NCBI GenBank assembly: GCA_032622095.1
Contig: CP136063.1
Coordinates: 40,212,106 to 40,276,105, forward strand
DNA length: 64,000 bases
Direction: 5' to 3'
Source of the DNA: Siphonodentalium dalli
Lineage: Eukaryota > Mollusca > Scaphopoda > Gadilida > Siphonodentaliidae
The notes below the pieces were generated by a model. That model made no database searches and was not told the origin of the DNA. It saw nothing but the letters and a program-made list of their open reading frames with translations. Positions 6,971 through 63,803 of this stretch are shown here, one piece after another. How positions within the stretch are numbered: position 1 is the first letter of the stretch; each line of letters begins with the position of its first letter. Position numbers and translations under genes: made by a program.

Positions 6971-7243
6971 CAGCAACTATAATGAACAATGAATACCGTA
7001 CCCAGCAGACTATAAGGAGCAATGGATACCGTACCCAGCAAACTATAAGGAGCAATGGATACCGTACCCATCAAACTATAAGGAACAATGGATACCGTAC
7101 CCAGCAACTATAATGAACAATGAATACCGTACCCAGCAGACTATAAGGAACAATGGATACCGTACCCAGCAAACTATAAGGAGCAATGGATACCGTACCC
7201 ATCAAACTATAAGGAACAATGGATACCGTACCCAGCAACTATA
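6971..7243. repeat. 131-bp higher-order repeat inside the minisatellite
   Basis: The 32-bp variant monomer (cagcaactataatgaacaat) recurs with its 'aatgaacaat' part at 6981, 7112 and 7243, exactly 131 bp apart (three 33-bp units plus one 32-bp unit). The units between are nearly the same in order, so a four-unit block was duplicated as one piece. Confidence 0.8.
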
Positions 7244-7939
7244 ATGAACAATGAATACCGTACCCAGCAGACTATAAGGAGCAATGGATACCGTACCCAG
7301 CAAACTATAAGGAGCAATGGATACCGTACCCAGCAAACTATAAGGAGCAATGGATACCGTACCCAGCAGACTATAAGGAGCAATGGATACCGTACCCAGC
7401 AAACTATAAGGAGCAATGGATACCGTACCCAGCAAACTATAAGGAACAATGGATACCGTACCCAGCAGACTATAAGGAGCAATGGATACCGTACCCAGCA
7501 GACTATAAGGAGCAATGGATACCGTACCCAGCAAACTATAAGGAGCAATGGATACCGTACCCAGCAAACTATAAGGAACAATGGATACCGTACCCAGCAG
7601 ACTATAAGGAGCAATGGATACCGTACCCAGCAGACTATAAGGAGCAATGGATACCGTACCCAGCAAACTATAAGGAACAATGGATACCGTACCCAGCAGA
7701 CTATAATGAACAATGGATACCGTACCCAGCAAACTATAAGGACTAATGTATACCGTACCCAGCAAACTATAAGGACTAATGGATACTGTACCCAGCAAAC
7801 TATAAGGACTAATGGATACCGTACCCAGCAAACTATAAGGAACAATGGATACCGTACCCAGCAGACTATAAGGAGCAATGGATACCGTACCCAGCAGACT
7901 ATAAGGAACAATGGATACCGTACCCAGCAACTATAAGGA

Positions 7940-8245
7940 GCAATGGATACCGTACCCAGCAAACTATAAGGAGCAACGGATACCGTACCCAGCAAACTAT
8001 AAGGAACAATGGATACCGTACCCAGCAGACTATAAGGAGCAATGGATACCGTACCCAGCAAACTATAAGGAGCAACGGATACCGTACCCAGCAAACTATA
8101 AGGAGCAATGGATACCGTACCCAGCAGACTATAAGGAGCAATGGATACCGTACCCAGCAAACTATAAGGAGCAACGGATACCGTACCCAGCAAACTATAA
8201 GGAGCAATGGATACCGTACCCAGCAGACTATAAGGAACAATGGAT
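7940..8245. repeat. 99-bp higher-order repeat inside the minisatellite
   Basis: A three-unit pattern repeats three times: a unit with caacgg instead of caatgg, then an AAC unit, then a GAC unit. In peptide terms the order is NYKEQR, NYKEQW, DYKEQW. This indicates local amplification of a 3 x 33 bp block. Confidence 0.75.
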
Positions 8246-11200: not shown

Positions 11201-13127
11201 TGGATACCGTACCCAGCAAACTATAAGGAGCAATGGATACCGTACCCATCAAACTATAAGGAGCAATGGATACCGTACCCAGCAAACTATAAGGAACAAT
11301 GGATACCGTACCCATCAAACTATAAGGAGCAATGGATACCGTGCCCAGCAAACTATAAGGAGCAATGGATACCATACCCAGCAAACTATAAGGAGCAATG
11401 GATACCGTACCCAGCAACTATAATGAACAATGAATACCGTACCCAGCAAACTATAAGGAGCAATGGATACCGTACCCAGCAGACTATAAGGAACAATGGA
11501 TACCGAACCCAGCAAACTATAAGGAGCAATGTATACCGTACCCAGCAAACTATAAGGAGCAATGGATACCGTACCCAGCAGACTATAAGGAACAATGGAT
11601 ACCGTACCCAGCAGACTAAGGAACAATGGATACCGTACCCAGCAAACTATAAGGAGCAATGGATACCGTACCCAGCAAACTATAAGGAACAATGGATACC
11701 GTACCCAGCAAACTATAAGGAGCAATGGATACCGTACCCAGCAAACTATAAGGAACAATGGATACCGTACCCATCAAACTATAAGGAGCAATGGATACCG
11801 TACCCAGCAAACTATAAGGAGCAATGGATACCGTACCCAGCAAACTATAAGGAGCAATGGATACCGTACCCAGCAGTCTATAAGGAGCAATGGATACCGT
11901 ACCCAGCAAACTATAAGGAGCAATGGATACCGTACCCAGCAAACTATAAGGACTAATGGATACCGTACCCAGCAGTCTATAAGGAGCAATGGATACCGTA
12001 CCCAGCAAACTATAAGGAGCAATGGATACCGTACCCAGCAAACTATAAGGAGCAATGGATACCGTACCCAGCAACTATAATGAACAATGAATACCGTACC
12101 CAGCAACTATAATGAACAATGAATACCGTACCCAGCAGACTATAAGGAACAATGGATACCGTACCCAGCAGACTATAAGGAGCAATGGATACCGTACCCA
12201 GCAACTATAATGAACAATGGATACCGTACCCAGCAAACTATAAGGAGCAATGGATACCGTACCCAGCAACTATAATGAACAATGAATACCGTACCCAGCA
12301 GACTATAAGGAACAATGGATACCGTACCCAGCAAACTATAAGGAGCAATGGATACCGTACCCAGCAACTATAATGAACAATGAATACCGTACCCAGCAGA
12401 CTATAAGGAACAATGGATACCGTACCCAGCATACTATAAGGAACAATGGATACCGTACCCAGCAAACTATAAGGAGCAATGGATACCGTACCCAGCAAAC
12501 TATAAGGAACAATGGATACCGTACCCAGCAAACTATAAGGAGCAATGGGTACCGTACCCAGCAAACTATAAGGAGCAATGGATACCGTACCCAGCAAACT
12601 ATAAGGAGCAATGGATACCGTACCCATCAAACTATAAGGAACAATGGATACCGTACCCAGCAAACTATAAGGAGCAATGGATACCGTACCCAGCAAACTA
12701 TAAGGAGCAATGGATACCGTACCCAGCAAACTATAAGGAGCAATGGATACCGTACCCAGCAAACTATACGGAGCAATGGATACCGCACCCAGCAAACTAT
12801 AAGGAGCAATGGATACCGTACCCAGCAGACTATAAGGAGCAATGGATACCGTACCCAGCAGACTATAAGGAGCAATGGATACCGTACCCAGCAAACTATA
12901 AGGAGCAATGGATACCGTACCCATCAAACTATAAGGAGCAATGGATACCGTACCCAGCAAACTATAAGGAGCAATGGATACCGTACCCAGCAAACTATAA
13001 GGAGCAATGGATACCGTACCCAGCAACTATAATGAACAATGAATACCGTACCCAGCAGACTATAAGGACTAATGTATACCGTACCCATCAAACTATAAGG
13101 AGAAATGGATACCGTACCCAGCAAATT

Positions 13128-14109: not shown

Positions 14110-14815
14110 ATACAAACGCTTTATATATATATGTTATGCTTCCGAAACATGGCGAGCATTGCTCTTAGAACATGCTTGGGACTATACAACACACCAGGCG
14201 CTCTCAAATGTGATTTTTGAGACAATGCAAATTTTTTTGAGATTGGGTGGGATACGAACCCCGGCCCGACGACGAGCGCGCCTTGCGACTCAAAGTCCGA
14301 CGTCAATACCACACGGCCACCGAAGCAACCCCAAAAAAGGAAGCTCGAATGGCCGCTGTATTCCGACGTCGCACTTAGGACACTATATTCACATTTTAAG
14401 GTCTCTTTATATATATGTATATATGAGGTTCGGCACAGCAGCAATGTTATATATTTTATGCCTCCGAAACATGGCGAGCATTGCTCTTAGAACATGCTTG
14501 GGACTATACAACACACCAGGCGCATATTTTTAGAAGCAAATTTGATTTTTGAGACAATTCAAATTTTTTGAGATTGGGTGGGATACGAACCCCGGCCCGA
14601 CGTCAATACCACACGGCCACCAAAGCAAGGCGCGCTCGCCGTCGGGCCGGGGTTCGTATCCCACCCAATCTCAAAACATTTGCATTGTCTCAAAAATCAA
14701 ATTTGCTTCTAAAAATAGGCGCCTGGTGTGTTGTATAGTCCCAAGCATGTTTCGGATGCATAACATATATAACATTGCTGCTGTGCCGAACCTCATATAT
14801 CTATTATATATTTTT
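14110..14815. repeat. SINE-bearing repeat blocks, two reverse then one forward
   Basis: A ~340-bp repeat occurs in reverse orientation at about 14110-14400, truncated in reverse at about 14421-14615, and truncated forward at about 14625-14815. It includes 'cctccgaaacatggcgagc' and 'gcttgggactatacaacac'. A tRNA-like head lies on the minus strand at about 14243-14327. The blocks abut head to head near 14620, forming a palindrome-like junction. Confidence 0.75.
14243..14327 (-). mobile_element. tRNA-derived SINE head
   Basis: Read on the minus strand it has an A-box-like TGGCCGTGTGGTA and a B-box-like GGTTCGTATCC, separated as in a tRNA with a long variable arm (Ser/Leu type). No intact acceptor stem is visible and the same head occurs several times, so this is a SINE part and not a working tRNA. 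Confidence 0.6.
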
Positions 14816-17765
14816 GGAAGATCTGTCTGTGTATCTGTGGTCTGTCTGTGGTCTGTGTGTTCGCGATGAACTCGAAACGGCCGACCCGATTTCGATGAAA
14901 CTTGGTATGTGGGGGTATTTTCGGCCGGGGGGGTGGCATAGGCATATTTATTTTCAGATCCGAGGTCAACTTTTCACGTGCCGAGGTCAAATCTGTTTTT
15001 ACGCTGTGTTACGGGACTTTCATTTGAGTTCGGTGCTTACAAATCGATTCGAAACAGCGCGAATAATAAAATGCCAGTCATAATAATGACACTGTGAGAA
15101 TCTTTCGTGTTTCCTCTTTCCAACGATATATAATGCGTATGTACCCGTTTTAGTTATCTGCCTCAATTATCAAGAAGAAGTGGTACTATCTTCCATCAGG
15201 ATAAAAACAATGCGTAACTTCTATGACGTCGTTAGAGGTCATAACGTTAGATCACGTTAACGCTTAACCGGCCGATGCATTTGACTGTTTCAGACGTCTT
15301 GGCGATATCTCGGGCACCGATGGTAATTTATCTTTACGTTGAAACTTGATAATTAATGAGCGTGTGTATATGAGGCGCGTTTATATACTTGAGTGGAAAT
15401 CAAATCGGGTTAAACTGGCGGATTTTTACGGACGAAATTTGATGCATAGGGTATCTCGGTATCCGCTGGGCCGATTTCCCGGTATCCGCTGGGCCGATTT
15501 CCACCATTTTTGGGGTGTTGGTGTTTGACCCCACCTGACCTTGACCTGCAAAATGGTCAATTCAAGGTCAAAGCCCGGACGAAGTCGGGTCACCTTCTAG
15601 TCTATTATATATTTTGGAAGATCTGTCTGTGTATCTGTGTGTGGTCTGTGTGTGTGTTCGCGATGAACTCGAAAACTGCCGACCCGATTTCGATGAAACT
15701 TGGTATGTGGGGGTATTTTCGGCCGGGGGTGGCATAGGCATATTGATTTTCAGATCCGAGGTCAACTTTTCACGTGCCGAGGTCAAATCTGTTTTTACGT
15801 TGTGTTACGGGACTTTCATTTGAGTTCGGTGCTTACAAATCGATTCGAAACAGCGCGAATAATTAAATGCCAGTCATAATAATGACACTGTGAGAATCTT
15901 TCGTGTTTCCTCTTTCCAACGATATATAATGCGTATGTATCCGTTTTAGTTATCTGCCTCAATTATCAAGACGAAGTGGTACTATCTTCCATCAGGATAA
16001 AAACAATGCGTAACTTCTATGACGTCGTTAGAGTTCATAAGGTTAGATCACGTTAACGCTTAACCGGCCGATGCATTTGACTGTTTCAGACGTCTTGGCG
16101 ATATCTCGGGAACCGATGGTAATTTATCTTTACGTTGAAACTTGATAATGAATGAGCGTGTGTATATGAGGCGCGTTTATATACTTGAGTGGAAATCAAA
16201 TCGGGTTAAAAGGTCAAATCGGGTAAAACCGGATGGATTTCGACGGGTACTTTTGTTCGGGCAGTGTTTTGGACGGGTCAAATCGTGACCCCACTTGACC
16301 TTGGCCTTCAAAATAGACAATTCAAGGTCAAACCCGGACGAAGTCGGGTCACCTTCTAGTCTATTATATATTTTGGAAGATCTGAGTGTGTGTCTGTGTG
16401 TGTGTTCGCGATGAACTCGAAAACGGCAGACCCGATTTCGATGAAACTTGGTATGTGGGGGGTATTTTCGGCCGTGGGGTGGCATGGGCCTATTAATTTG
16501 TCCGTGCGACGTGACCTTGACATTGAAATCGGGTCATTTCAAGGTCAAACGCCCGAATATCACGGGATTTCGATGAAACTTGGTATGTGGGGGTACGTTC
16601 GGCCGGGGTGTGACATAGGCCTATTAATTTGCCCGTGCGACGTGACCTTGACCTTGAAATCGGGTCATTTCAAGGTCAAACGCCCGAATATAACGGGATT
16701 TCGATAAAACTTGGTATGTGGGGGTCCTTTCGTATGGGGAGTCACATAAGCATATTCATTTGTCCGTGCGACGTGACATTGACCTTGAAATCGGGTAACT
16801 TCAAGGTCAAATCGCCAATTTTGATGGGATTTCGACGAAATTTGATACGTGGGGTTACTTTTGTCCACTGATTGTTTTGGACGGGTCATATCGTAACCCC
16901 GACCTGACCTTGACCTTCAAAATGATCAATTCAAGGTCAAATTGGGTAAAACCGGATGGATTTCGACGGGCACGTTTGTCGGGTACTTTTCTCCGGGTAG
17001 TGTTTTGGACTGGTCAAATCGTGACCCCACTTGACCTTGACATTCAAAATGGACAATTTAAGGTTAAAGCCCGGACGAAGTCGGGTCACCTTCTAGTCTA
17101 TTATATATTTTGGAAGATCTGTGTGTTCGCGATGAACTCGAAAACGGCCCACCCGATTTCGATGAAACTTGGTATGTGGGGGTATTTTCGGCCGGGAACG
17201 AACATAGGCATATTAATTGTCCGTTCGACATCACCTTGACCTTGAAATCGGGTAATTTCAAGGTCAAACGCCCGAATATCACGGGATTTCGATGAAACTT
17301 GGTATGTGGGGGTACCTTCGTATGGGGAGTCTCATAAGCATATTCATTTGCCCGTGCGACGTGACATCGACCTTGAAATCGGGTCAATTCAAGGTCAAAT
17401 CGCCAATTTTGATGGGATTTCGACGAAATTTTATACATAGGGGTACTTTTGTCCGGGCAGTGTTTTGGACTGGTCAAATCGTGACCACAACCTGACCTTG
17501 ACCTTCAAAATGATCAATCGAGGTTAAATCGGGTAAAACCGGATGGATTTCGACGGGTACTTTTGTCGGGTACTTTTGCCCGGGCAGTGTTTTGGACGGG
17601 TCAAATCGTGACCCACCTGACCTTGACCTTCAAAATGGACAAGTACGGGTACTTTTGTCCGGGCAGTGCTTTGGACGGGTCAAATCGTTACCCCACCTGA
17701 CCTTGACCTTCAAAATGGTCCATTCATGGTCAAATCCCGGACGAAGTCGGGTCACCTTCTAGTAC
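14811..17765. repeat. Four tandem ~0.75-kb repeats rich in TCAAGGTCA half-sites
   Basis: Units begin with 'attttggaagatctg' near 14811, 15611, 16370 and 17106. The boundary string 'cggacgaagtcgggtcacc' closes each unit, at about 15576-15594, 16336-16354, 17073-17091 and 17739-17757. Inside are shorter subrepeats containing tgaccttgacctt and ttcaaggtcaaa in opposed orientation around a 'gatttcgatgaaacttgg' core. No coding content is supported. Confidence 0.8.
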
Positions 17766-17854
17766 ATATATATAAAGATACCTTAAAATGTGAATATAGT
17801 GTCCTAAGTGCGACGTCGGAATACAGCGGCCATTCGAGCTTCCTTTTTTGGGGT

Positions 17855-17940
17855 TGCTTCGGTGGCCGTGTGGTATTGACGTCGGACTTTGAGTCGCAAG
17901 GCGCGCTCGCCGTCGGGCCGGGGTTCGTATCCCACCCAAT
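17855..17940 (+). mobile_element. tRNA-derived SINE head
   Basis: A-box-like tggccgtgtggta and B-box-like ggttcgtatcc in a Ser/Leu-tRNA-like arrangement. It is nearly identical to the head at 18187-18273. Confidence 0.6.
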
Positions 17941-18186
17941 CTCAAAACATTTGCATTGTCTCAAAAATCAAATTTGCTTCTAAAAATAGGCGCCTGGTGT
18001 GTTGTATAGTCCCAAGCATGTTCTAAGAGCAATGCTCGCCATGTTTCGGAGGCATAAAATATATAACATTGCTGCTGTGCCGAACCTCATATATACATAT
18101 ATATAAAGAGACCTTAAAATGTGAATATAGTGTCCTAAGCGCGACGTCGGAATACAGCGGCCATTCGAGCTTCCTTTTTGGGGTTG

Positions 18187-19073: not shown

Positions 19074-19078
19074 GTAAA

Positions 19079-19303
19079 CAGGTCGGGCAAAGATGCAAAA
19101 TTGGCTTACTAGCGAAATCGGGCTCAGTAAGCCAGTTCGATCTCTCGTTTTAATGTGTTTTGACAACGCACACCTGACTTTGCCAGGTGCCGCGACAATG
19201 CGCAATTCAGTTTTCAACTCATCATTTACGACGCATTAGAGCGCTTTAAAAACCACCATTGTCTCACCTACTCGCAACGGCGGTAATCCTTTTAATTGGT
19301 GTT
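19079..19303 (+). repeat. Left terminal inverted repeat of the 8.4-kb element
   Basis: Matches the reverse complement of 27256-27480 with one visible difference. It contains two internal hairpins: ggcttact...agtaagcc and cacctg...caggtg, the latter like sub-terminal protein-binding sites. Confidence 0.9.
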
Positions 19304-20241
19304 ACTTATTGTCTGTTTGCTTTAATTTTAGTGACTGTTTCATAGCCTTGTTCTCGCTATTAAGTTTCTTTTCGACGCGTTCTTGGTCCGGAAATGATAA
19401 ATTGTGACGGCAGCAGAAAATTTTCACAAGGAAACGCTTATGATTGGCTGTATATATATCTGGCGAGATGCTTGAACCACCTTTATGATTAGTACTCTTT
19501 TTAAAATCTACGGAAGACTGCATCAGTTTTGCGGCACAAATACATTCCCGCCGTCATTTTACCACTCTCGTAGCCGGTTTTCCCAACCGCTCTCGGTGCA
19601 AAAAACATGTATCGAGTTATCTTTCTTAATCACAAAGCGCCATAGAGAGTTACTCTGTGCAAATCGCGGTACCGAAGAGTGCCAATCGAGAGTGCGCTGT
19701 GTGAAGGTTGACTGATCGGTGTACATTAAAGTGAACTACCGCGATGCTCTTTTTATAGACTTGCATTGCTAGGTATATTATAACGAACACGAGCATATAA
19801 CGAAAAAGTAGTAAACAACCACGATAAACGTGCACTGTCAGTTATATCACACACTAAAATGACAAAATTACGTAGGAAATTATGGTTTCGCTAGGATACA
19901 AACACATTAAAGTGTCTCATATGTTGAGAACACATGTCATATATAGCGTGTACCTACCTCTGTAAGGTGCTGTGAATCCGTGGACGTCGAAATTTCAAAT
20001 GTACGTACAATGGGTCCACATGAACTAGCCCCGCTGTTTCAGCCAATCGGAGCATCACTTGTGGATATGTGAGTTGTTTGTTAAGATTATCAACCAATAG
20101 CCATTACCCACAGACAACTGCAACATTATCTCACAAGCAACAGGATTTCCCATTGGCCCCAATAAAACATGATAGTCACAGGTAGACGTGTATTTAAGCA
20201 CATATTGAAGGCACAAATGTTGTCAAACATATATTTCCGAA
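19304..20241. promoter_or_regulatory. Upstream region of the transposon gene
   Basis: No coding region is recognised between the left terminal repeat and the start codon at 20242. A TATA-like tatttaa lies about 50 bp upstream of the ATG. Promoter function is inferred from position only. Confidence 0.3.
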
Positions 20242-23200
20242 ATGGAGAACGATAGCAAAATTCGCTGTGGTTGCAGCTTGCATAACTCGATCGCCGGTGA
20301 CAAGCCGTTCACTTTCAAGAAAGTTGGCAGCAAGAAGATAAAAAAACGAATATTGGAAACACTTTACGAAAAGAATCTGATGTCAAGGTACGTCTAACAT
20401 TTTTTCTATATAAGCCCAGTTCCACTGAAATGGCCAGTGTCACCCTTACCGTTCAGTTGGGTACCCAGCTGTTTGAATTTTCACTTGAGTACCGGTACCC
20501 ATCTTTTATAAAATTTGATGTGGCTTGTTGACATTCATCGAAAAGCTCTCGGCGAGAGCTTTCCGATGAATGGCAACAAGCCACATATCCGACTAAATCA
20601 TGAAAATTTACCCATAGTTTTGCTGTGGTTAAGTGGTCAATTACGTTCGGCATTATCGAACGCCAAATTGTAAATATTTACATCTCTATTCGGGACGCAA
20701 CCATCGGCGATAATGTAAAAGAAATGATTTCACCACTGAGAGTCAGTGCTTGTAATTAATATATAAGAATGGGGGTGTGTATCTTTAAATAAATTGGTTT
20801 TAAATATTTTGCAATATATGTTTTCAATGTTAAACACACTGGATATGTTCATATTATCCAAATACCACGACAATGATAGCTTTATAAAAATAAATATCTG
20901 TACTTTTGCGTGATAGCATCAGTTTGCATTACCAGCATCATATATTAAGTCAACGGGACCAACCAGCATCACAGTATATTAGCAGGACCACTTGGCCAGT
21001 GGTGACTATGTCCTGTTGTTTCTAATAAGGTGTTTTAAAAATTACAGTGGTTGGAACAAGAGAGTCAACGACTGTTGAGTCGTTAACTTTATTGTAAAGT
21101 TTGGGAATAATATCGCCTGTACTTGTCAATCATCTTTAAATAGGTGATACCATGTTTCTCAAAGGGTAGCAATCAATTCACCGCGGATAATGCATAACTT
21201 ACATGTCAAAATATATTATTGAAGTCCGAGTCAGAAAACATTCAGATTGGAGGGGAGGTGGGAGGGCATAAAATATATGAAGTATGTATGAGCATAAATT
21301 GAAAGTTGCATTTGAGTCTCTGTATTGACAACCGATTAATAGTAGGCTATTTTCATCTCATTTCAGAAAAGCTGTGCGCCTCTGTAGTTTGTGCGAGGAA
21401 GATGTTGAACTACAAATGTCACCAGAAACATCTTCGGCAACGTCAGACAACACACCAAAAGATGATATAAATGCTGAAACTGTCATTTCTAAAATAAGGG
21501 AAGGTGGATTTTCTCCTACAGAGTTGTCGGCAATTGCGAGAGCAATTGGTGAATCTCAAAATGACACTATATATAAACAGAGTGAAATAAATATGAATTA
21601 TGATTCCTTAGGAAATTTCAACCGAACATATTGGTTGTCGTGCCAAAATGGTGTTTTAGTCTCCTTCTTGGAAGGAATCAGTCAATGCAACATTAAAAAA
21701 GATAAGAAAATCAACACTTTGTGTATGGCGATTGAGCAAATTAGATATTTGAGAAATACAAAATATATTGGACCTATTTCATTCATGGTTAACCTTTTGA
21801 CATATTTCGTTACTTCCAGTAAGACAGTGTGTAATATTTTAGGGATATTACACGCTTCAGCCTCATATACATTCATATTGGACTGGGCAAAGGCCAATGC
21901 ATCACAACCACTAACATGTCCAGTTTCCGGAAATGTGGTCACATTCTTTGACAACAATCAGGTTTTGGGAAGGCGGTGGCGCGTAAACATCAATGCAAAA
22001 CCACTTCTCAGTGTCATCACCAACATTGTACATATATCTCCTATTTATTATAAAAATGTTCAACATGATGAAAAGTTATCACCAACAATATGGCTGAAAA
22101 CCAACCTCACAAAACAAAAACAAATTGTTGATTTGATGAGGGAGGAAATAGTTAATTCGCAAAGTATGTTTAAGGAAGAGCGAGACAAATTCATTTCGGA
22201 AAGGTTAAAAAGTGTAATGAATGAGCAGATAGTTTCCGATGGACACGTCACTGACTTTCTGGACACGGATGCTACAAATGATGTTGGTGCAGAAATAGAA
22301 CCCTCCAAAGTTACGTTTTCGAATACCGGAACAAGAATCCTTGAAAAAAGTAAGACATTAGACTCTCGGTACACGGAGTTGCTAGTGCTCACCCACCTGG
22401 AAAACCAACTATTAACATGGGTGATCCTATTGAAACAAACCCATGTTCGTATGTAGCCGTAGAGAGTGTTCTCAGATCCCTCGCATCAAGAGCTATCGAA
22501 AACTGTGAGCGCAAATGGTCTGTGATTGGGTGTGATGGAAACCCCTACGTCATTGGTGCAAAAATTATTCAGCGAACACCCGAAAATGACATTTTAAAAA
22601 ACATCTTACTGACACCAGGTCTCGGCCACATCGAAATTAATATTGTTAGAGCTGTGTTTAAAATTTCGTGGGATTTGATACTAAAGGACGTAGGGAAGAT
22701 GTTGGGGTTTAAAACACCAAATGCTATGGCGGCATGCAAAGGGGCATATGATCACCACAAGTCCTGGCAAATTCTCCAGATATTCATGTACGCCACTACA
22801 GACGAACTTTTGCTTCCATATATACGCGACTGTATCAGCAGAGGAGACTCTCCATCTGTATCAGGTTTTGACAATTGGACAAATTCCCATTCTCAAGATG
22901 CAAATTTTTGCCTGATACATGATTTAGTGTTTACTTATGTTTTCGGACTTAATCTATTCAGGATAGGCGTCAGAAGAAATTCAAGTGAAATAATTGTAGC
23001 CGCAACTAATAAATTGTCTCTGCTTTCTTTTGGACTTAATATGCCTAATTACATGGAAAGTTTTATGAGGGATTTGGCGTGTCGTGTTCAGCGGCCACTT
23101 GATGTTGCTGATTTTATGGATAAGACAATGTCATTTTCGCAATCCGGAAATCCATGTGCCGGTGAAGGAGGTGATTTTCTATTAGAAAATAAAAACAGAA

Positions 23201-26200
23201 GGACGAAAATGTGGGTTCCACCTGGTGTTCCCGACAGTGCAAGATGGTTCAGGGTATGTAGCAACCTGGACAAACTTGAAAGGGTAAGTTTAATAATTAT
23301 TAATATACAATCAATATTTCACTTCTTTCCCTTTTTCACGTATTTGCCACGCTTTGGCGCTTTACCTTTGCTACCACGTGGCTCCTCATCGGAGTCAGCC
23401 GGGGGTGCTACGAAAATGTCAACATTTTTCTTACATGCATCCACAGGCTTGTCTTTTCGCAAAGCCGCAAGCTTGTGCTCATGGCAAAAGAACTTTAATG
23501 CTTTGATTTCTTTGTTTTCAAGGCCAACTAAGCCGACACAGTAACCATGCACCCAGTACTTGCATGCTTTTACTTTACACCCTACCCAGCGACCAAGCTC
23601 GTCGCAGGGTACGGTGTAAATACGTCCGCAGACGCGGCATCTATTCTTGCCGGACGCAATTTCGCCCGTGTTGGTTGCTGACGAAACTCTTCTTATTTGG
23701 GGAGCCGACGTTGATGGCAGATTTACTGGCCCTGTTGTTGCTGCTGCTGTTGTTGTTGTTGTTGGTCGTGGTGGTGGTGGTGATGGCACTGCTGACGACA
23801 CGCCCTTTTGTTTATTTTTAACCACACCCTTCAATTGAAATTGTGATGTATGTTTCTAGGTGAATTGACACATAATTTTGTGACGTTCAAGTTAAAACTT
23901 ATGACTATTGCAATAGTTGGTCTGAAACACTAAGAACATGTTTTTGATTGTATCGTGATACACTCAAAACGATATACTTAGTGTTTCAGACCAACTTAAC
24001 TATAACAATTTGGATCCCAATATATGTCGTAACAAAACTTTTAGGCAATATAGTTCCATATAAAACTTGTGCAGCTATAATGTAACATAACATAACGTTG
24101 TTTATGGTTGATTCAGTGAAACGTCACCATTAGCATTAATGGACAAGGTTATGGTTTATGTTGTATGTGAAGTCGTTCATTCCTGCTTTAAATCTTTAAA
24201 TTCAAAATATAAATTCACAATGGTTCAAAATACAAATTATTATGGTATACATTGTTATCTTTGGTGGGCGGTAATCAACAGCTACTGTTTACATAAAATT
24301 TCTGATCCATTTAAAGATACGGTGGCGTTTGTTGTGGATATTATTGTTCAAATGGTCACTTCCGTTAAAGCCGCCATAAACAGAAAGAATATTTAAATAT
24401 AGCAAGAGAATGTTCTTGTACTAAACCCAAATGTTTGCATAAATAGTAGGTTATAGTCAAGTTCATACGCTTTGCTATGTAAACAAAAGCCAAAAACATT
24501 TAACAACATGGATTTTGTTTACATAACAAAGCATACATAAATGATAATAACATATTGTTTATACTATATTTATTATAGGTATAAAATCACACATGTGCAT
24601 ATTTTAATATTCTGTCTGTTTATGTCAGTTTTAAAGGGTGACTATTTTAACAGCATACCCACCAGGACGACAATCCGTGTCTTTAATTATTTGTTCACAA
24701 ATCCTCTAATTAATTTCATTTTATTTATTCTGAATACACATCATGCTGTTGTACGCATTACAAAAAATGTATGTCATAATTGTATTAAATTGAATTGGAC
24801 ATTTAACATTATTGGATATGTTGTGGACAATCCTTCAAGCATTTCATTAATATATCGAACTTTATGAATGATGAAATAAAACTGTACCTCATAAACTTCC
24901 GCGAAATGTCCTTCGGTGACGAAATACATCTTCTTTCTCCTTTCGTATTCCACGTCAACGAACACATCAGCCCCCATGGCAACACTCAGTTCCCATGCCT
25001 ATTTTTGATATACAAAATGAATAAACACTATTATTAAAAAATAGCTTAATTGAATGAATGCATGTTGCAACTTTACTTTTCTTTCCATCTGGACAATTTT
25101 CCTGCCCGGAACAACAAGGGATATAACTCGACTTCTATTAACACATGTACGCAGTAAGATTATCGACATAACAGAATGCTCTCTTTGCTTAGCGCATCTT
25201 ATTACATGGTACATTTTCGCATGGAGCAATGACGTCATACATTAAAGTTGCGATTTGTTTTTAACTATTATCAAATTCAACAGGCTGCTTAATGAAAATT
25301 TCTTCCATAGTCTACGAATTACGTATTTTGTTAAATTGTAGATACGATGCAACATGGAAACTATGTTTGGCCAGTCGGCAACTCTCCAAGATCAGGGCGA
25401 AGAGAAGCACCAGGCTAGAAATATTGATCTGTCCAAAGAAATCAATGGCTGCAGGAAACTGTTGAGGGGCTCCTCAATTATCTATAGCAATATCGACAGG
25501 GTTGCTGCAGTTTCCTTTTCCGGTAAATATATATAATCATATCCCAATCGATCCTATACCAAAAACGAGCAATTGGGAATTGATGTTATAACTATACACT
25601 AAATGAATGATGGATGTACAATATATTGCAAAAGGCATGTGTAATTGGATACAACAGTATTATGTTTCAATAATTAGTTGTAATGATGTGTCAATAACTG
25701 TGTGATTCAAACGGTACATAATTACTTCCTTGTCGAATCGTGTTTTGTTTCTTTTTACAGGAGAAACGCTTGATGATAGACTGCATGTCTTCAGCGATCG
25801 ATGCAATCGAAACCGTGAGACGTATCTAACCAGATTAGAAGAGAAGGGGGAATACAGACAGGCCCTCGAAGAACCCATCTTCATTAAGCACGCAGACAGG
25901 GTACTGGCAGAGTCCATCCAAAGCAATACAATCCCAGTGTTAAAGGCCATGGCAGAGGGATATCTTGACCAATTGGACCTGGTTGGTGACACCGACGCGC
26001 ATGCACAATTAAGCAGCGACTACCAGACAGCAAAGAAGTGGAAAAAGGTCGACATCGTAAAAGTTTGTCAGCGGCTAAAAAATGCTGTTGCTGCGACACA
26101 AGACTATTCAACCTCAGGTATGTGTCATTACACATTTGCATGCATTAAATTATATAGATTATGATATGCATTGGCCAATGTATGTCAAATGTATACAAGG

Positions 26201-26662
26201 GCGATAAAATATGCCTCACCTTTTTCAAAACAGTGTTACTGCGCTTTCGAAATAATTGTGACCTCTTGACGTTGTCTGTTTCCAAGCTTGGCTTTCTCAC
26301 CCCCGTGCATGTGTTTTCGATCTGCATGGTTGGCCTTTTAAATTTTTCCCCGGATTTGTACCTTTTTTCCTCTCTATTAACTTCTATTGATGTGGTTCGG
26401 CCGACTCGTCCTCGCTGTTCCCAGATTGGGTTTCGGAATCTGACGACTGGAAAAATATGTAGGCTTATAGCCAATTGCTATTTTCAGACCAAACATTCCA
26501 ATTCAGTAGAGTAATTTCTATTATTAAAATCATTAATTTTATTTCAATGTTGTGTTTACAATTGTTGACAAACTGCATTATCTATTAAACTACACTTTCA
26601 TTGCAGTAAACGTAGAGTTTGCGAGCACAGAAGATGATACTTGTGCGTCGATGGCGATGTAA
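20242..26662 (+). CDS. DUF6589-like protein of the 8.4-kb transposon (5 exons, one frame change)
   Basis: Exons: 20242-20387, 21367-23283, 25342-25522, 25761-26117 and 26607-26662, with GT-AG junctions, matching phases and a TAA stop, about 885 residues. The N-terminus has paired cysteines (CGC, then CSLC) that may bind zinc. The centre has LTCPVSGNVVTFFDNN, then the strongest block, PGLGHIEINIVRAVFKISWD, followed by HHKSWQILQI, DELLLPYIRDC, GGDFLLENKNRRTKMWVPPG and LDKLER. These resemble a lophotrochozoan multicopy family related to DUF6589. The frame must change between about 22354 and 22416, as the upstream frame runs to a stop at 22456 while conserved sequence (PPGKPTINMGDP) continues in another frame; this is an indel, unseen small intron or sequence error. 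It is the likely transposase by size and position, which is inference. Confidence 0.75.
20519..20657. mobile_element. Hairpin MITE fragment in intron 1
   Basis: 20519-20585 is a nearly perfect ~33-bp-arm hairpin (tgtggcttgttg...caacaagccaca) centred on ctctcggcgagag. It is followed by 'acccatagttttgctgtgg' and 'taagtggtcaattac', the terminal repeat also found in the MITEs at 45619-45788 and 58597-58731. It is a truncated or rearranged member of that family. Confidence 0.65.
23319..25200 (-). CDS. MADS-half plus PHD-finger gene, antisense within the transposon intron
   Basis: Minus-strand exons 24888-24998 (37 codons) and 23319-23828 (169 residues plus TGA) join in phase 0. The first encodes AWELSVAMGADVFVDV..., matching the AxELSxLTG half of a MADS domain, and equals in length the 111-nt MADS exon at 55088-55198. 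The second has a Ser/Pro/Thr-rich linker, then a PHD-like finger (CRVC...WVGC...C..WVHGYC...FFCHEH), an acidic patch and a basic tail. A tentative upstream exon ends near 25076 at AAA|GTAAAG (…VVPGRKIVQMERK), but it does not convincingly supply the DNA-contact half of MADS. The gene lies wholly within the 23284-25341 intron of the plus-strand gene. Confidence 0.65.
23917..23994. repeat. Inverted repeat, 18-bp perfect arms
   Basis: Arms ttggtctgaaacactaag (23917-23934) and its exact complement (23977-23994) enclose 42 bp that hold a smaller palindrome (tatcgtgata). It may be a small MITE or a cruciform-forming site in the MADS-PHD intron. Confidence 0.75.
24465..24537. repeat. Inverted repeat, ~20-bp arms
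   Basis: gctttgctatgtaaacaaaa (about 24469-24488) pairs with 'ttttgtttacataacaaagc' (about 24513-24532) with one mismatch. Unclassified hairpin, possibly a MITE relic. Confidence 0.65.
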
Positions 26663-26884
26663 CTAGTCAAAGTTCACCTATAAGTGTATGCAGGTCGCAG
26701 GATTTCCGGTGTAACGATATAAGATGTGTGAGTACATTTATCTATCTATCTTTTATCTCTGAATAATTCGTACGACATTCGTTCAAAGTGGCATATTGTT
26801 ATTAACAAATTAACTTGAAACAATGTAAGCCTACGTACCGATTTCATTTTCTGACAGCAATGCACGTCAATATGCGTTCTATAA

Positions 26885-26940
26885 AATTATGACCAAGCAC
26901 TGTTACGAGTATCATTATATTCACCACTGCTTGGTCATGT
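26885..26940. repeat. Inverted repeat downstream of the transposon gene
   Basis: atgaccaagcactg and cactgcttggtcat form ~13-bp arms around about 27 bp. It lies between the last exon and the right terminal repeat and could be a 3'-end or transposase-binding structure. Confidence 0.6.
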
Positions 26941-27255
26941 GACAGGTTAATGAGTTCGGGACACGGGTAATCGTGATAACGAGCTCATTTCATGGTCAAT
27001 CGTCACGCTTCCGAATTTGATCTTTGTTATTTTGTGATTGTCCGTGCGTGCTTCCATACTATTGTTCTCTTAACCATGAAAATAATGTGAATTTGCGAAA
27101 TACTATCCTCCAATCAAATTTCTTGCAACCAAAAGCTTACCTTGACCTTTGTAAACAGCTTGTCTTCAAAAAATGACGTGGCCGGCCATCACCTGAATTG
27201 CGCTACTAACTTCATCTAGGAAGAATATATGAAGCTTAATTATCGGCTGTCATTA

Positions 27256-27480
27256 AACACCAATTAAAAGGATTACCGCCGTTGCGAGTAGGTGAGACAA
27301 TGGTGGTTTTTAAAGCGCTCTAATGCGTCGTAAATGATGGGTTGAAAACTGAATTGCGCATTGTCGCGGCACCTGGCAAAGTCAGGTGTGCGTTGTCAAA
27401 ACACATTAAAACGAGAGATCGAACTGGCTTACTGAGCCCGATTTCGCTAGTAAGCCAATTTTGCATCTTTGCCCGACCTG
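27256..27480 (-). repeat. Right terminal inverted repeat of the 8.4-kb element
   Basis: Reverse complement of 19079-19303, equal in length, with one visible difference (ccc versus ctc near 27340). It ends GCCCGACCTG, followed by the gtaaa target duplication. Confidence 0.9.
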
Positions 27481-27485
27481 GTAAA

Positions 27486-27998: not shown

Positions 27999-30900
27999 TA
28001 GTCCAGACGCCAAGTCTGAAAAGGTCGCTATTTTAGGAGTTAGTTCAACCGGTCACCAAGAAAATTTCCACGTGTTGCCTGTTGTGGGGGACTACAGTGC
28101 GGTCCATGCAAGGATGGATGTAATTTCTGAAAGTGTTGCAATTTTTTTCTACTCATGGTTTTTAATTGAATTAAGCTTAAAATTACCATAAACTGAAAAA
28201 TCAAACTACAGATGACAGTTTATGTCATGTTGGCATTAGTATCCTCCAAAATCTTAGTAATAGATATATTATTCCACATCGCCACACAAGATTTTGGAAA
28301 ATAAATACTATTTTCGAAAAAAAATGATGTAAGGGTTTTGTTTTGGCTAATATTTGCTTTCGTTTAAATTTATTTCTGAAACTGATGGCACACCGCTTGT
28401 AATATCCCCAATGAATTCATTGTGTTAAAGCGTTATAATTTTTTACAATAAACTGGGAAGTCAAATTGCCAGATAAAATCTTCAGATAGTGCCTTGAATG
28501 ATTATTTTTTGTAAAAGATATAACCCTCCCCCCCCCCCCCTAAAATTAAAAAAATGTCACTTTTTCAGTTTCGTTAATAAGACACTTGTTCTGTAATATA
28601 ACAATGGAAATACACCCGTACCCGATCGTACCGTGCACACAATGTCACCGGAGGGTCAGATTAGTACCGAGATGTAGCTTTAAGCCAAACCTTTGGATTG
28701 CAAATAAATATTCAAGACGGCCTCCAGATCCAATAAGCGAAATCAGACCATACGGATGTGATCAATTTATATTTAGTTGCAGGACTTAAAACCCAAGTTT
28801 GAATAACTTCTGTATGTCTAAAAGTTCATACAACAACTGACAAAAGTTAACTTTCATAGTTTCGTAAAGTAATATAATCCTGAGTTATAGGAATTTTCAT
28901 GTACAACAAGCACTGAACTGGCAATATTATTTTGTTTTGTGAAAAAGTTATTTTTCGCCATCATTCATTGTTATCAGCTTAAAATAACCATAAACCGAAA
29001 ACTCGAACTAGCTATGACAAGTTATGGCTTTATGGCATTACTAATCATCATTATGTTAAAATAAAGATTAAATATGTCGTAGCTACAATACAATCTCGAA
29101 TAGTTAGAAAAATACGCAACGAAGTGCATTTTTAGGGCTAAAATCAGCTTTCGATTCATTGATGTTTTCTAACTGATACTGCCCGCTTTCTAATTTTTCG
29201 GAAAATTCCTGGTATCAAACCGTAATAATTTGCTGCATTTAACTGGAAATTACAGTGATTCAATTGAAATGGAGACAAGTCCTCTCAAATTAATACCCGT
29301 TGCCAAAAAGTGTAAAGTTTCGTTGAATTTCAAACGGTGTTTAATATGTCAGAAATTAAAAGATGAGAATCTGCGGAAAGCTTCCGAATCTTGTTTGGAA
29401 TCGTTTTCAGTTGCTCTGGATGTTCGTCGATCATCATCTGTGTCTGACTTACCAGCGTAGTTATCGACATTCCATGAAGATCTCAACATAAGTTTGCATA
29501 AGAGTTGTTTCTCCAATCTCCAGTTTCACAAGTTGTTCGAATTTCAGATCAAACAGCCCACATCCTCGACTGTTGATCAGACAAATCCAAAAGTTACAAG
29601 AGAATATTTCGACTTCAAAACTAGATATATTATATGCACAAATTTGTTTCACTTGGGAGTAAAGACATTAGTTCGGGTCAGTACATTTACATTTTTCGAA
29701 ACTATCGAACGATGTGCGAAGGAAAAGGAGGATGACATGATGCTACGGCGTGTTGGGTGTGACTTTTCGAAGTTGATAGCACTTGAGGCAATATATCACA
29801 GGTTGTGTCATAGTAAATATCTGCTGGAGACCACCGACTCTAGTATCACGATTACCCCACACGATGTTGCACTGGAACATTTGATGAGTGATATTCTCCC
29901 GACTTAGAAAAGGGTGTCACATATGATATGGTCATATACTATCAAAGTTCCTGGAAATATTACGACAAATAGGCAACACTAAACAGAAACTGAAGGAACA
30001 GATTGAAAAGATTTACTCTGACAAAGTGTTTTTTATTGATAAATCACGGACTAAACCTGAACTCGCGATCAGTAAATCCCTTAATATACATAATGCCATC
30101 AATGTCACAGCAAACACCAGGGTTATGATCAAGGAACTGTTATCGTCCAGTATTACAGATGCTTTGGAACAAATTGAGAGAGAAGGACTGATAGTGCCAA
30201 ACAATTTGACATATGGGGCAGTGACACGAGGCGCTGGTGATAATTTCAACAGAGCGACAGAATATGTAGGTGGATATCACCACGACGTGGTGAATCTGGT
30301 GTTATATCAGGCCACTGACCTCAGTGCTTCGGTGTTATGCCAAAAAAGTATGAACGCCAACCAGAAACCCATATCCCATTTGGTAATACTATTCGTGTGT
30401 GTCCTAATCTCGGAGGAAAGCAACCGGGCCCAGTGCATCTAACTGGAAAATGCGCATCCGTTGGTTCAACGTGTGTTCCAAAGTACATGAATCCACGAGA
30501 TTGGTAGACAAAAGCTATGTTCTCTTACGCACAATACCGACTAAGTTATTCAATGTACATTTTGAGAGAGGTGAATCGGAATATGTTCCTGGCTGGAGTG
30601 TATATCACGCTAGTGTCACTAATCGAATCAACGTGACGAAGACTAACATTGGATGTTGTCCTACTGGTTCAACGACTGATTTTGAAACAGTATATACAAC
30701 GACGAAACGGTTCCAGAATTTGTTCAGGATTTGTATTATGTAGCATACGACGAAGCAATATACTGCAAGGCTCAGATGATTAAATGTATGAAACCTGGTG
30801 AATTTGATAACGACGATGGGAGGGATGCCCAGTGCTATGAATTGGCTTCGAACACATTCTTATATAAGCTGGGTGCATGGTGACGCCACTGTGAACCGGA

Positions 30901-33628
30901 TTGTATACGGAAAGTCATATAAGCGTGGAGTAGTTCGTTTGAATAAGCTGATGAACGAAGCATTTGGACAGTTGAGGGGGAAGTCGTTTTTAGACTGGCT
31001 TAGTTGCAACGAAGTACACATTGAACCGCCGCATCTGATTGACCATATTCTCGAAAAGGCCGATAGAGTGATGACGAAGTTCAGAGACTTGAAAGAGGAG
31101 AGCAGGCAAAGCTTGCAGACAAGTGTTGACGAATTCCAACCAGCCGCAGAGCTTCTTTTAGAATAGTTTGACAAGTTCGTAGAGCATGACAGGAAAGTAT
31201 CAAAACAGATATTTTCTAGGGACAACTATGTCTATGATCTCTCACAATTGTTCCTTGATTACATTGCTGCTAAGTGCGATTGCAGTGGGTTGCTTGAAAT
31301 GGAGACACTAGCAGAAATGATTACTCTGGATTTCATGTGTAGACATGTAAACTACTCCCGGTGGGGCATAGTCAATGTAGCGGATTCGAGACTAATGTTC
31401 GAGAAGAAACTGCATATAGCATTCGTCGTTTTTCAGAAAGACACTTCTGTTCATCACACATGCAAGCCTTTCTCTGAAGTTTGGCATGATATTGCTATAG
31501 AACAATCGATAAATATGGACTATGGTAAATATCGGGATTTGTGTTGCCAGACTGCAGCTCTAAACCGGCTCTATCTCACGGCCCATTCAAAATCCCCAGT
31601 TGCGTTGCAAACTTTGGAAATGAGTGGACTGCATGACGCGAACAGAACTCCACAAAATAAACATGGTCAACTTCTTTTTCAATAATTGGTCCCTAAAGAT
31701 ACCATTGTTATTGTCACATGACCAGCAAGTGTTTCTTGCGGGTGGATTTCCAGATTCAAAGAAAGCAATTTTTTTATCAAATGATGGTTGCGGTTGGTCT
31801 GACCGCGAAGAATGTTCGTACACATGGGGCGTGCAGCAAGTGAACTGCAAGTTGAAATATTCATTGTGTGGAGTGGTGACTCAGACGTTCTGGCGATGTG
31901 CACAATGTGTTGTGTACTACTAGGTATACGAGAGTTATTCTTCCTAATTGGTGCAAACGACGTCGATATATCCCAGTGCATGATTGTGCGAAGGTTTTTG
32001 GCAAGGACATGTCACTGATTATTCCAGCAGTTCATGCATTGAGCAGATGCGATTCGATAAGCGCATTCAGTTCTATTTGGAAATTGATATGGTTCAGAAC
32101 ATTGAAAGATCACCCAGAACTTATCCCGGCTTTTACGCAGATGGTGAGGACCCGACTTGCATTCCGAATCATGTGAGGGAAACAGGTGTGTGTCTTGTTC
32201 CTTTGGTTTATTCCAACCGTAATTCGACACCACTGGATGACTTGCGCTACGAATTGTTCAGCAAGAAGAACGTGAGAAGCGACAAACTCACACCGACTAT
32301 GGAATCATTCAGATTGTACCTAAACGCGTTAAATATCAAACGTATATATGGACTCATGCTCTTGTCCCAATGTTGTTGCTGCCATCACCACGACTCAATG
32401 GCTGGATACTTAATAATTATAATGGGCACCTTGTTCCGAAAACGATGTCACTCGCTCCAGCTCCGACTGCCGTTCTCGAACTCACAATCTGCAAGTGCAA
32501 GTCCGATTGCAGTACAAGACGCTGCCGTTGCAGGAAAGAGGATGTTCAATGCACCGATGCATGTGGCTGCGATCAAGAACTTTGTGACAATAACTGTACG
32601 AGTGACGGAGAAGTGAGCAATGAGAAAAGTTTATAGCATACCCAACTTTCTTTATTGCGTACCAATTAGTAATTTGCACATGTTATTTTACTTAGTGGCG
32701 AAAAATAACATTTTTCCCAAAAACCAAATGATTATATTGCCAGTTCAGTGCTTGTTGTGAATGTAAATTTTTACAACTCAGGATTATATCACCTTAAAAA
32801 TCTATGGAGGTTAACTTTTTCAGTTGCTGTGTGAACTTTTAGACATACAGAAGTTGTTCAAACTTGACCTTTATGTCCTGTAACTAAATATAATATGATC
32901 ACATCCGTATGGTCTGATTTAAATTATTGAATGATGGGAGCCGTCTTGAATATTTATATGCAATCACTAGTTTTAGCTCAAAGCTACAACTCGGTACTAA
33001 TTTGACCCTCCCGTGACATTGTAACAACGGTAAGATCGGTTACGGGTGTATTTCCATTGTAATATTACATAACAAGCGTCTTATTATCAAAACTGCCAAA
33101 AATGACAATTTTCTAATTTTAGGGGGGAGGTTTATATTTTTTACAAAAAATAATCATTCAAGGCATTATCCAAAGTTTTGTTCTGGCAATTTGACTTCCC
33201 AGTTTGTCGTAGAAAATTATTACGCTTTAATATTCGGAATTAACTAGGGAAATTACAAGCTGTGTGTTATCAGTTTCAGAAATAAATTGAAACGAAAGCA
33301 AATATTTGCCCAAAAAACGCACTTAAATAAATTTTTTTCGAAAATAGTATTTATTTTACAAAATCTTGTGTGGGGATGTGAAATAATATCTCTATTCCTA
33401 ACATTTTAAAGGGAAATAATGCCAATATGTCATCTGTAGTTTGAAATATCAGTTTATGGTTATTTTAAGCTTTATTCAATCAAAAACCATGAAAAAAAAA
33501 AAAAAAATTGCAACACTTTCAGAAATTACGTCCACCCTTTATACATGAACCGCAATGTAGTTCACCACAACAGGCAATAGGCGGAAATTTTCTTGGTGGC
33601 CGGTTGAACAGAATCTAAAAAAAAACTA
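27999..33628. mobile_element. Academ-like DNA transposon, copy 1 (5.6 kb)
   Basis: The element begins TAGTCCAGACGCCAAG. Its two ends are long inverted repeats of about 1 kb (27999 to ~28990 against ~32650 to 33628), sharing for example the 'caaccggtcaccaagaaaa' / 'ttttcttggtggccggttg' segment. TTA flanks it at 27996-27998 and 33629-33631. The extreme right end has lost about 15 bp, leaving only 'acta'. A 3-bp duplication plus an XPG/PIN-like GCD motif fit the Academ superfamily; this assignment is inference from remembered family features. Confidence 0.75.
29269..32636 (+). pseudogene. Degraded XPG/PIN-like and CXC-domain protein of transposon copy 1
   Basis: Conserved coding sequence runs through several frames with stops (for example at 29458 and 29905). 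In order: a Cys-pair N-terminus (FKRCLICQKLKDE), CFSNLQFHK, the YHRLCHSKYL box, FIDKSRTKPELAISKSLNI, PGWSVYHASVTN, IGCCPT...TDFETVYTTTKRF, GGMPSAMNWLR, then DSDVLAM and HALSRCDSISAFSS. The last two correspond to the acidic and GCDTTSAF-like motifs of a multicopy invertebrate family that I take as XPG/PIN-like. The C-terminus keeps a CXC (tesmin/TSO1-like) cluster, CKCKSDCSTRRCRCR...CGCDQELC. In this copy the usual GCD glycine is Arg. The start at 29269 is the first Met shared by all three copies. Confidence 0.7.
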
Positions 33629-35236: not shown

Positions 35237-38200
35237 TAGTCCAGACGACAAGTCTGAAAAAGGCTCTATTTTAGGAGTTAGTTCAACCGGTCACCAAGAA
35301 AATTTCCACGTGTTGCCTGTTGTGGGGGACTACAGTGCGGTTCATGCAAGGGTTGATGTAATTTCTGAAAGTGTTGCAATTTTTTTCTATTCATGGTTTT
35401 TAATTGAATTAAGCCTAAAATTACCATAAACTGAAAACTCAAACTACAGATGACAGTTTATGTCATTTTTGCATTATTTTCCTTCAAAGTCTTAGTAATA
35501 GATACATTATTCCACATCGCCACACAAGATTTTGGAAAATAAATACTATTTTCGAAAAAAAAATATTTAAGGATTTTTTTTGGGCAAATATTTGCTTTCG
35601 TTTCAATTTATTTCTGAAACTGATGGCACACAGCTTGTAATCTCCCTAATGAATTCCTTGTGTCAAAGCATAATACATTTCTACAATAAACTGGGAAGTC
35701 AAATTGCCAGATACAAACTTCAGATAGTGCCTCTAATGATTATTGTTTGTAACAAATATAACCCTCCCCCTAAAATTAGAAAAATTGTCATTTTTTGCAG
35801 TTTCGTTAAAAAGACGCTTGTTCTGTAATATTACAATGGAAATACACCCGTACCCGATATTACCGTGTTCACAATGTCACCGGAGGGTCAAGTTAGTACC
35901 GATATGTAGCTTTAAACCAAACCTTTGGATTACATATAAATATTAAAGACGGCTTCTACATCCAATAAGCGAAATCAGACCACACGGATGTGATTAATTT
36001 ATATTTAGTTGCAGGACTTAAAACCCAAGTTTGAACAACTTTTGTATGTCTAGAAGTTCATACAGCAACTGAAAAAAGTTAACTTTCATAGTTTCGTAAA
36101 GTAATATAATCCTGAGTTATAGGAATTTGCATGTACAACAAGCACTTAACTGGCAATATTATTTTGTTGTGTGAAAAAGTTATTTTTCGCCATCATTCAT
36201 CGTTATCCGCTTAAATAACCATAAACCGAAAACTCGAACTAGCTATGACAAGTTATGGCTTTATGGCATTACTAGTCATCATATGTTAAAATAAAGATTC
36301 CATATGTCGTAGCTACAACACAAGCTCTAATAGTTATACTGATTTCGAAAAATACTCAATGAAGTGCATTTTTAGGGCTAAAATCAGCGTTCGATTGATT
36401 AATGTTTTCTAACTGATAGTGCCCGCTTTGTAATTTTCCGGAAAATTCCTGGTATCAAACCTTAATAATTTGCTGCATTTAACTGGAGATTACAGTGACT
36501 CAATTGAAATGGAGACGAGTCCTCTCAAATTAATACCCGTTGCCAAAAAGTGTAAACTTTCGTTGAATTTCAAACGGTGTTTAGTATGTCAGAAATTAAA
36601 AGACGAGAATCTGCGAAAAGCTTCCGATTCTTGTTTGGAATCGTTTTCAGTTGCTCTGGGTGTTCGTCGATCATCATATGAAGAATATGGAATTGACCTT
36701 AAAGATATCGACATAAGTTTGCATAAGAGTTGTTTCTCCAATCTCCAGTTTCACAAGTTCTTCGGATCTCAGATTAGTCAAAGAGCCCACATCCACGACT
36801 GTTGATCAGACAAATCCACAAATTACAAGAGAATATTTCGACTTCAAAACTAGATGTCTTATATGCTCAAATTTGTCTCACTTGGGAGTAAAGACATTAG
36901 TTCGGGTCAGTACATTTACATCTTGCGAAACTACCGAACGATGTGCGAAGGAAAAGGAGTATGACATGATGCAACGGCGTGTTTGGTTTGACTTTTCGAA
37001 GTTGATAGCACTTGAGGCAAGACATCACAGGTTGTGTCATAGTAAATATCTGCTGGAGACCACCACCTCCAGTAACACGATTACCCCACACGGTGTTGCA
37101 CTGGAACATTTGATGGGTGTATTCTCCCGGACTTTGAAAAAGGTGTCACATATGATATGGGTCATCTACTATCAAAGTTCCTGGACATATTACGACAAAT
37201 AGGCAAACCGAAGTGTAGCAAGGTCTACACTACACAGAAACTGAAGGAAAAGTTTGAACTGAATTACTCTGACAAAGTGTGTTTTATTGATAAATCACGG
37301 ACTAAACCTGAACTCGCGATCAGTAAATCCCTTAATATACAGAATGCCATCAAGTCGCATCAAACACCAGGGCTATCCTCAAGGAACTGCAGTTATCGTC
37401 CAGTACTACACATGTTTTAAACAAATTGAGAGAGACGGATTGACAGTGCCAACCAATATGACATATGGGGCAGCGACAGCATCTGTAGGTGGATATAACC
37501 ACGACGTGGTGAATATGGTGTTATATCAGGCAGCTGATCTCAGTAGGGTTGCTTCGGTGTGATTCCAAAGAAGGATGAACGCCAACCAGAAACCCATATT
37601 TCATTTGATAATACTATTCGTGTGTGTCCTAATCTCAGAGGGAAGCAACCGGGCCCAGTGCATCTAACCGGACAATGCGCATCCGTTGGTTCAACGTGTG
37701 TTCCAAAGAACATGCATACATGAGACAAAAGCTATGTTCTCTTACACAATACCGACTAAGTTATTCGATGTACATTTTGAGAGAGGTAAATCGGGATATG
37801 TTCCTGGCTGGAGTGTATATCATGCTAGTGTCACTAATCGAATCAACGTGACGAAGACTAACATTGGATGTTGTCCGATGGTTCCTGGTTCAGCGACTGA
37901 TTTTGAAACAGTATATACAACGACGAAACGATTTCAGACTTTGTTCAGGACTCTAGGACATAATTGGTCTTATGTAGCATACGACGAAGCAACATACTGC
38001 AAGGCTCATATGATTGAATGAAGGAACCCTGATGAATTTGATAACGACGATGGTATGGATGTACAGAGCTATGAAGTGGCTTCGAAGACATTGTTATAGA
38101 AGCTGGGTGCATGGTGGCGCCACTTTAAACCGGATTGTATGCGGAAAATCGTATAACCGTGGATTTCGTTTGCATAAGCTGATGAACAAAACATTTGGAC

Positions 38201-63667: not shown

Positions 63668-63803
63668 ATCATTCCAAAATAAGGAGCAATGGATACTGTA
63701 GCCAGTAAACTTACAACAATTCTCCGATGTGTATGCATGCTAATAAGGAGCAATGGATGCCGTACCCAGTCAACTTAAAACTATTATCCTATGTCTATGC
63801 ATG
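63668..63803. repeat. Two diverged minisatellite-like units (~65 bp period)
   Basis: aataaggagcaatggatact and aataaggagcaatggatgcc begin two units near 63679 and 63742. Each is followed by a cagt(a/c)aactta end and a 'tatgcatg' tail. The left flank 'atcattccaaaataaggag' is identical to that of the isolated monomer at 5746. This looks like the dispersed source element of the 33-bp array. Confidence 0.8.

Follow-up and report, generated by a model that had tools for sequence, protein, structure and literature searches.

The closest parallel in layout to the element described here is the plan of the RAG-like transposons, as set out in PMC7204232; Transib, RAG-like and ProtoRAG elements share with it a 5-bp target duplication, CA..TG ends, and a transposase gene accompanied by a PHD-finger gene on the opposite strand. 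In the predicted fold of the transposase, the nearest of the groups compared are P and hAT. The element itself is an 8.4-kb DNA transposon at positions 19079-27480 of a 64,000-nucleotide stretch, which we call the window, from the genome of the scaphopod Siphonodentalium dalli (assembly GCA_032622095.1, 2.23 Gb in nine contigs; contig CP136063.1, C3:40212106-40276105). We are fairly confident that it moves by cut and paste and represents a lineage of superfamily rank, one for which we found no described home. An initial annotation of the window had known of no superfamily with this combination of termini, duplication and genes. That claim is supported as far as Pfam and the literature covered here go, and on that basis the element is probably, rather than certainly, undescribed. 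Among the papers listed on new superfamilies, 5-bp duplications, Academ and Kyakuja-Dileera-Zisupton (KDZ) elements, hAT5, PHD fingers and RAG, judged by title and the start of the abstract, none describes it.

The ends of the element are long inverted repeats starting CAGGTCKGGCAAA. An unguided inverted-repeat search recovered the two terminal inverted repeats (TIRs), each of 225 nt: the left arm at 19079-19303 (plus strand), which begins CAGGTCGGGCAAAGATG, and the right arm at 27256-27480 (minus strand). Compared directly, the arms differ at one base (TIR position 141, T/C), and their likeness ends at 225. The sequence GTAAA lies on either side, at 19074-19078 and 27481-27485. Thus the left boundary reads ...TACTGTAAA/CAGGTCGGGC and the right boundary GCCCGACCTG/GTAAATGG..., where the slash marks the junction. 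At the local base composition, a perfect 5-bp match between two random flanks has a probability of p ~0.0012. The direct comparison of the ends therefore bears out the equal inverted ends, single mismatch and perfect 5-bp duplication reported in the initial annotation.

Inverted repeats of this kind could also arise by segmental inverted duplication around ordinary genes, with no mobile element involved, and the repeats themselves, though nothing further, speak for that explanation. The 225-bp end, however, has at least 40 matches in the genome (40 scored of 134 candidates), only two of which are the window's own ends. At other places in the genome there are sister copies, some full-length and some with internal deletions, that carry other exact 5-bp duplications. 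Among copies with both ends read, leaving aside partnerless single ends, the duplication is exact in 18 of 23 end pairs when the window's family (family 1) and two related families (2 and 3, described below) are taken together. Family 1 contributes 10 exact pairs of 13: GTAAA (window), TTAAT, TTAAA, GTAAA, ATTAT, ATGAA, GTTAA, TTTAT, ATTAT and ATGGA. The remaining three pairs (L014, L015 and L021/L042) have the flanks TTAGA/TTGGA in common and seem to descend from a single locus by segmental copying. The duplicated sites mostly follow the pattern nTnAn; when the exact ones in families 1 and 2, 16 in number, are pooled, T occupies position 2 in 15 and A occupies position 4 in 13.

Empty sites provide a second line of evidence. 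The window copy sits within another repeat, and other copies of that repeat represent the empty site. When the window flanks were fused over one GTAAA, the fused sequence had at least 40 scored matches (of 92 candidates), the window itself not being among them; all 40 rows cross the junction, and the first 12 span the full 203 nt at 90-94% identity. All five junctions that we fetched lack the element; two of them read a single GTAAA at that point, and the other three TTAAA. The two kinds of evidence that the initial annotation had proposed looking for are therefore present, namely copies with matching ends and different 5-bp duplications, read at paired copies, and uninterrupted sites, which are paralogous instead of allelic. 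Dispersed copies with their own duplications, together with empty sites, refute a local inverted duplication, to which we give virtually no weight. The element was mobile in the recent past.

Three internally deleted copies of 1.07 kb, at three different sites, are 99.5-99.8% identical to one another. They retain ~530 bp per end, and their identity to the window is ~96% in the right part and 88% in the left part. These copies moved recently, presumably with transposase supplied in trans. Present activity of the element, like its chemistry, is inferred. At the other extreme of size, a 26-kb copy (L024/L025, C9:102144905-102170992) has matching ends and an ATGGA duplication, and was read at both ends only; between ~500 bp of one end and the remainder of this copy lies other DNA, which may be a nested insertion or cargo that the element captured. 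The end pattern CAGGTCNGGNAAAN{1,3}TG occurs 2408 times in the genome, against 35 for the reversed control, a number that is not a copy number, as it includes motif variants tied to no family described here and runs at ~241-bp spacing with the look of tandem repeats. Many convergent pairs ~1.2 kb apart appear among the first 100 of the 2408 places, all of them on C1. On the same contig CAGGTCTGGTAAATTG is repeated at ~241-bp steps (for example at 64528584-64529809), perhaps a tandem repeat derived from an element end.

The plus strand of the element carries a gene of five exons whose GT-AG splice sites are common to the copies, and which encodes a stop-free protein of 885 amino acids in copy L012. 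Exon 1 (20242-20387) has a start and a splice donor common to five copies. Its CxCxxH opens a zinc-like CxCxxH...CxxC motif, which six of the 11 aligned relatives possess. The catalytic core lies in exon 2 (21367-23283), which is followed by exon 3 (25342-25522), exon 4 (25761-26117), encoding the C-terminal part, and exon 5 (26607-26661), which includes the stop codon. Three candidate catalytic codons fall in exon 2, numbered here by residues of P0001, the main exon of L012. The first two, D195 in an FFDNNQ motif (21950-21952) and D390 in a GCDG motif (22534-22536), are present in all 11 aligned proteins; the third, E607 in a GEGGDFxLE motif (23185-23187), is present in the nine rows that reach the site, two of the 11 ending earlier. 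In the predicted model D195 closes a strand (191-195), D390 directly follows a strand (385-389), and E607 lies within a helix (602-615). The predicted model has an RNase H-like arrangement, a fold that the initial annotation had suggested looking for. The same annotation had called this gene a DUF6589-like cargo. The multi-exon gene is indeed present; it is better named a transposase than cargo, and its window copy is frameshifted.

The frameshift arises near 22385, where exon 2 of the window lacks one base relative to L009, L012 and L013, and the transposase frame is therefore broken. Only one of the five copies examined (L012) is intact: exon 4 of L009 has a four-base gap, L013 has one stop, and L010/L011 have gaps in exons 2 and 4. 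Besides its stop, L013 (C7:24727173-24735580) has an A in place of the E of the transposase's invariant GHxEIN motif, and an S in place of a cysteine of the PHD finger. For pairs including the window, the uncorrected ratio of protein-altering to silent change per site is 0.16-0.39 in the transposase and 0.22-0.52 in the accessory protein discussed below. Over all ten pairs of copies it spans 0.16-1.36 in the former and 0.11-0.61 in the latter; a single silent change underlies the ratio that exceeds 1. Altering changes being rarer than silent ones, we read these ratios as a sign that selection acted on both proteins until recently.

The transposase is not confined to a single family. Matched against its own genome, the main exon has at least 104 matches (69 scored of 647 candidates), which fall into several families. 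The transposases of families 2 and 3 are 35-46% identical to the window's, and both families share CAGGTCTGGCAAA ends and 5-bp duplications. Family 2 has a frame of 705 amino acids, with two matched pieces 36% and 46% identical; its 241-bp ends begin CAGGTCTGGCAAATGTG, and its duplication is exact in six of eight pairs, the inexact pairs being GCAAT/TCAAT (read by eye) and CAGTT/TTTAA. Family 3 encodes 722-723 amino acids, with pieces 35-45% identical and one in-frame TAA in both copies whose ends were read. Its ends, of ~260 bp, start as in family 2, and both of its duplications (TTAAA and GTAGA) are exact. For a further family at 49% identity (L052/L053) the ends were not found, the similarity reaching the limits of the stretches compared.

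Beyond this genome, protein searches returned relatives P0002-P0009, which are 28-42% identical in the alignments; three carry bivalve names (Pinctada, Saccostrea and Argopecten). The distribution thus rests on these three bivalve-named matches, ENA records and the S. dalli genome itself. Searching proteins again with an enlarged profile gave seven, all already among the known relatives. Viral contigs yielded no relative, and an Rfam search gave no match.

Some of these relatives provide the link to DUF6589. The PF20231 DUF6589 profile matches P0002 (E=6.5e-6), L052 (2.5e-5) and L054 of family 2 (1.3e-3), and in total three of nine aligned members at E<=1. The best score, 25.5 bits for P0002, lies below the curated cut-off of 27, and the protein database assigns PF20231 to P0002 and P0005. 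The window family has no DUF6589 match, either for its exons taken singly or for P0001. The epithet 'DUF6589-like' therefore holds as a weak, sub-threshold match of the family's relatives and not for the family's own protein. No paper naming DUF6589 appeared in the literature searched. If our assignment is right, DUF6589 proteins and their relatives, whose function is unassigned, gain a likely job as transposases.

It is important to ask to which described superfamily, if any, such a transposase belongs. The predicted fold aligns with the P-element and Hermes transposases and with the retroviral integrase core, and P element and Hermes score above RAG1, a ranking that covers the families returned by the search and says nothing on unlisted ones. 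One reading is a divergent branch of the P/hAT group (the C/DxxH transposases), a new subgroup whose 5-bp duplication would be shared with hAT5. Yet our profile comparison with Pfam gave no hAT, P or THAP match, with a threshold of E<=10 for P0002 and the main exon and of E<=1 for the remaining exons, each scanned by itself. The hAT signature between the second D and the E is C/DxxH (PMC10045372), whereas the conserved H after the second D belongs to a GxGH motif in 11 of 11 aligned proteins; like the missing match to the hAT transposase and C-terminal dimerisation profiles, this separates the element from hAT, including Hermes and hAT5. The P superfamily (6p5a, 6pe2) is set apart by the 5-bp duplication, the ends of at least 225 bp and the PHD gene found here, as well as by the absent P and THAP matches. 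P elements make 8-bp duplications. On this evidence we regard a P/hAT branch as a tentative and rather unlikely placement.

Other groups differ in their ends or duplications. KDZ elements resemble ours in long inverted ends, large size and an N-terminal CxC-type zinc motif; KDZ1, for example, is ~11 kb with 241-bp ends (PMC12810828). Their duplications are 8 bp (4-8 bp for KDZ2 and KDZ3) as against 5 bp here, and the KDZ and CxC Pfam profiles gave no match to the exons singly or to the main exon. The Academ group is set apart, from its description only, by duplication length, given as 3-4 bp for AcademX and 9-10 bp for AcademH in PMC10045372. TDD-4 and TDD-5 make 5-bp duplications (PMC2836005); Ginger2/TDD ends read TGTNR, compared with CAGGTC here. 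CNEST is a new superfamily of the CMC group that occurs in fungi and has relatives in animals; we rejected identity with it on the basis of the TA duplications, 33-bp ends and CACGG termini ascribed to it in PMC12810828. The CMCT clade has C(2)C and H(3-4)H between the second D and the E (PMC12730594); among our 11 aligned proteins a compact C2H2 occurs in five, and the window family has none. Thus P, hAT, Transib/RAG, KDZ and Academ all fail to accommodate the element in the profile and end tests, and its predicted fold is nearest P and hAT among those compared.

The accessory gene brings us back to the RAG-like plan. On the minus strand, inside an intron of the transposase gene, lies an exon encoding a PHD finger (23319-23828, stop at 23319-23321); a middle exon without a Pfam match (24888-24998), whose splice sites are kept in five of five copies, and a putative first coding exon (25077-25088, encoding MERK, with its start codon predicted) complete the gene. 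It is open in four of the five copies and frameshifted in L010/L011. The window PHD exon matches PHD at E=5.9e-5 and zf-HC5HC2H at E=2.9e-5, both just below the curated cut-offs; against the PHD cut-off of 24 bits, the window scores 23.4 (just under), L054 22.2 (under) and L052 28.3 (above). An antisense PHD frame follows the catalytic exon in four families: the window's, the 49%-identity family (L052), family 2 (L054) and family 3 (L076, L077, where it was recognised by eye). The three aligned PHD proteins have 25 invariant columns in common. An exon similar by eye to exon 4 of the window lies beyond the PHD gene in L052 and L076/L077, and the PHD gene is therefore intronic in three of the four families; in family 2 no exon like exon 4 was found beyond it. 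The initial annotation had described a 'MADS-half/PHD' gene, whose PHD part is supported and conserved across families; the MADS half has no Pfam match and is not supported.

Could the element, then, be a deep relative of Transib/RAG? The 5-bp duplication, the CA..TG ends and the opposite-strand PHD partner all favour such a relationship, and so does the C2H2 finger that comes immediately behind the second D in five of the 11 relatives. P and Hermes rank above RAG1 in the structural comparison, and for that reason we do not file the element with Transib/RAG. Nor did PDB searches, with a single protein or with a family profile, return a RAG1, Transib, P-element or Hermes chain at E<=10. The C2H2 is absent from six of the 11, including the window family; where present it is compact, unlike the C2/H2 site of RAG1, which is split. 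No RAG2_PHD or Kelch profile matched the three PHD reading frames scanned. The ends, too, open with CAGG and not CACT: in families 1-3 they are unlike the Transib/RAG end consensus CACTWMCAAA or the heptamer of the recombination signal sequence (RSS), as given in PMC7204232. Finally, the PHD gene is not tail to tail with the transposase gene, as in RAG-like elements, but intronic in the three families noted above. Descent from a common ancestor with Transib/RAG is, in our view, improbable.

We read the likeness of plan as convergence, there being no sequence match between either protein and its counterpart in RAG. The fuller proposition, to which we assign an even balance of belief and doubt, is a superfamily of DNA transposons of eukaryotes that is still undescribed, has relatives in three bivalves or more, CAGG ends and 5-bp duplications, and in which a RAG-like plan of DDE transposase and opposite-strand PHD gene evolved independently. 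To judge from the fold and the duplication, the two ends would be paired, cut at CAGG, and joined to target strands 5 bp apart. The PHD protein would be an accessory, probably reading histone tails and steering or regulating transposition.

The element seems to add a lineage of superfamily rank, with several families in one genome, in which a DDE transposase and a PHD finger were apparently paired independently. Such a pairing became RAG1-RAG2 in vertebrate immunity. If the proposition is true, this is a second, separately evolved chromatin-reading subunit paired with a transposase, and there would be two systems in which to test what leads transposases to recruit proteins that read chromatin.

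Several other repeats were seen in the window. Within the element itself there are near-perfect hairpins at 20518-20586 and 23915-23996, with arms of 34 and 40 bp. A satellite array of ~203 copies of a 33-bp unit (94% matches) occupies 6463-13125, and the start of its unit reappears in a 64-bp repeat at 63678-63803. Members of a repeat family, 85-87% alike and in both orientations, lie at 28031-28533, 32939-33433, 35269-35956, 39917-40613 and 61030-61676. Inverted repeats at 14230-14602 and 17763-18183, 98% complementary and ~3.3 kb apart, possibly mark another element.

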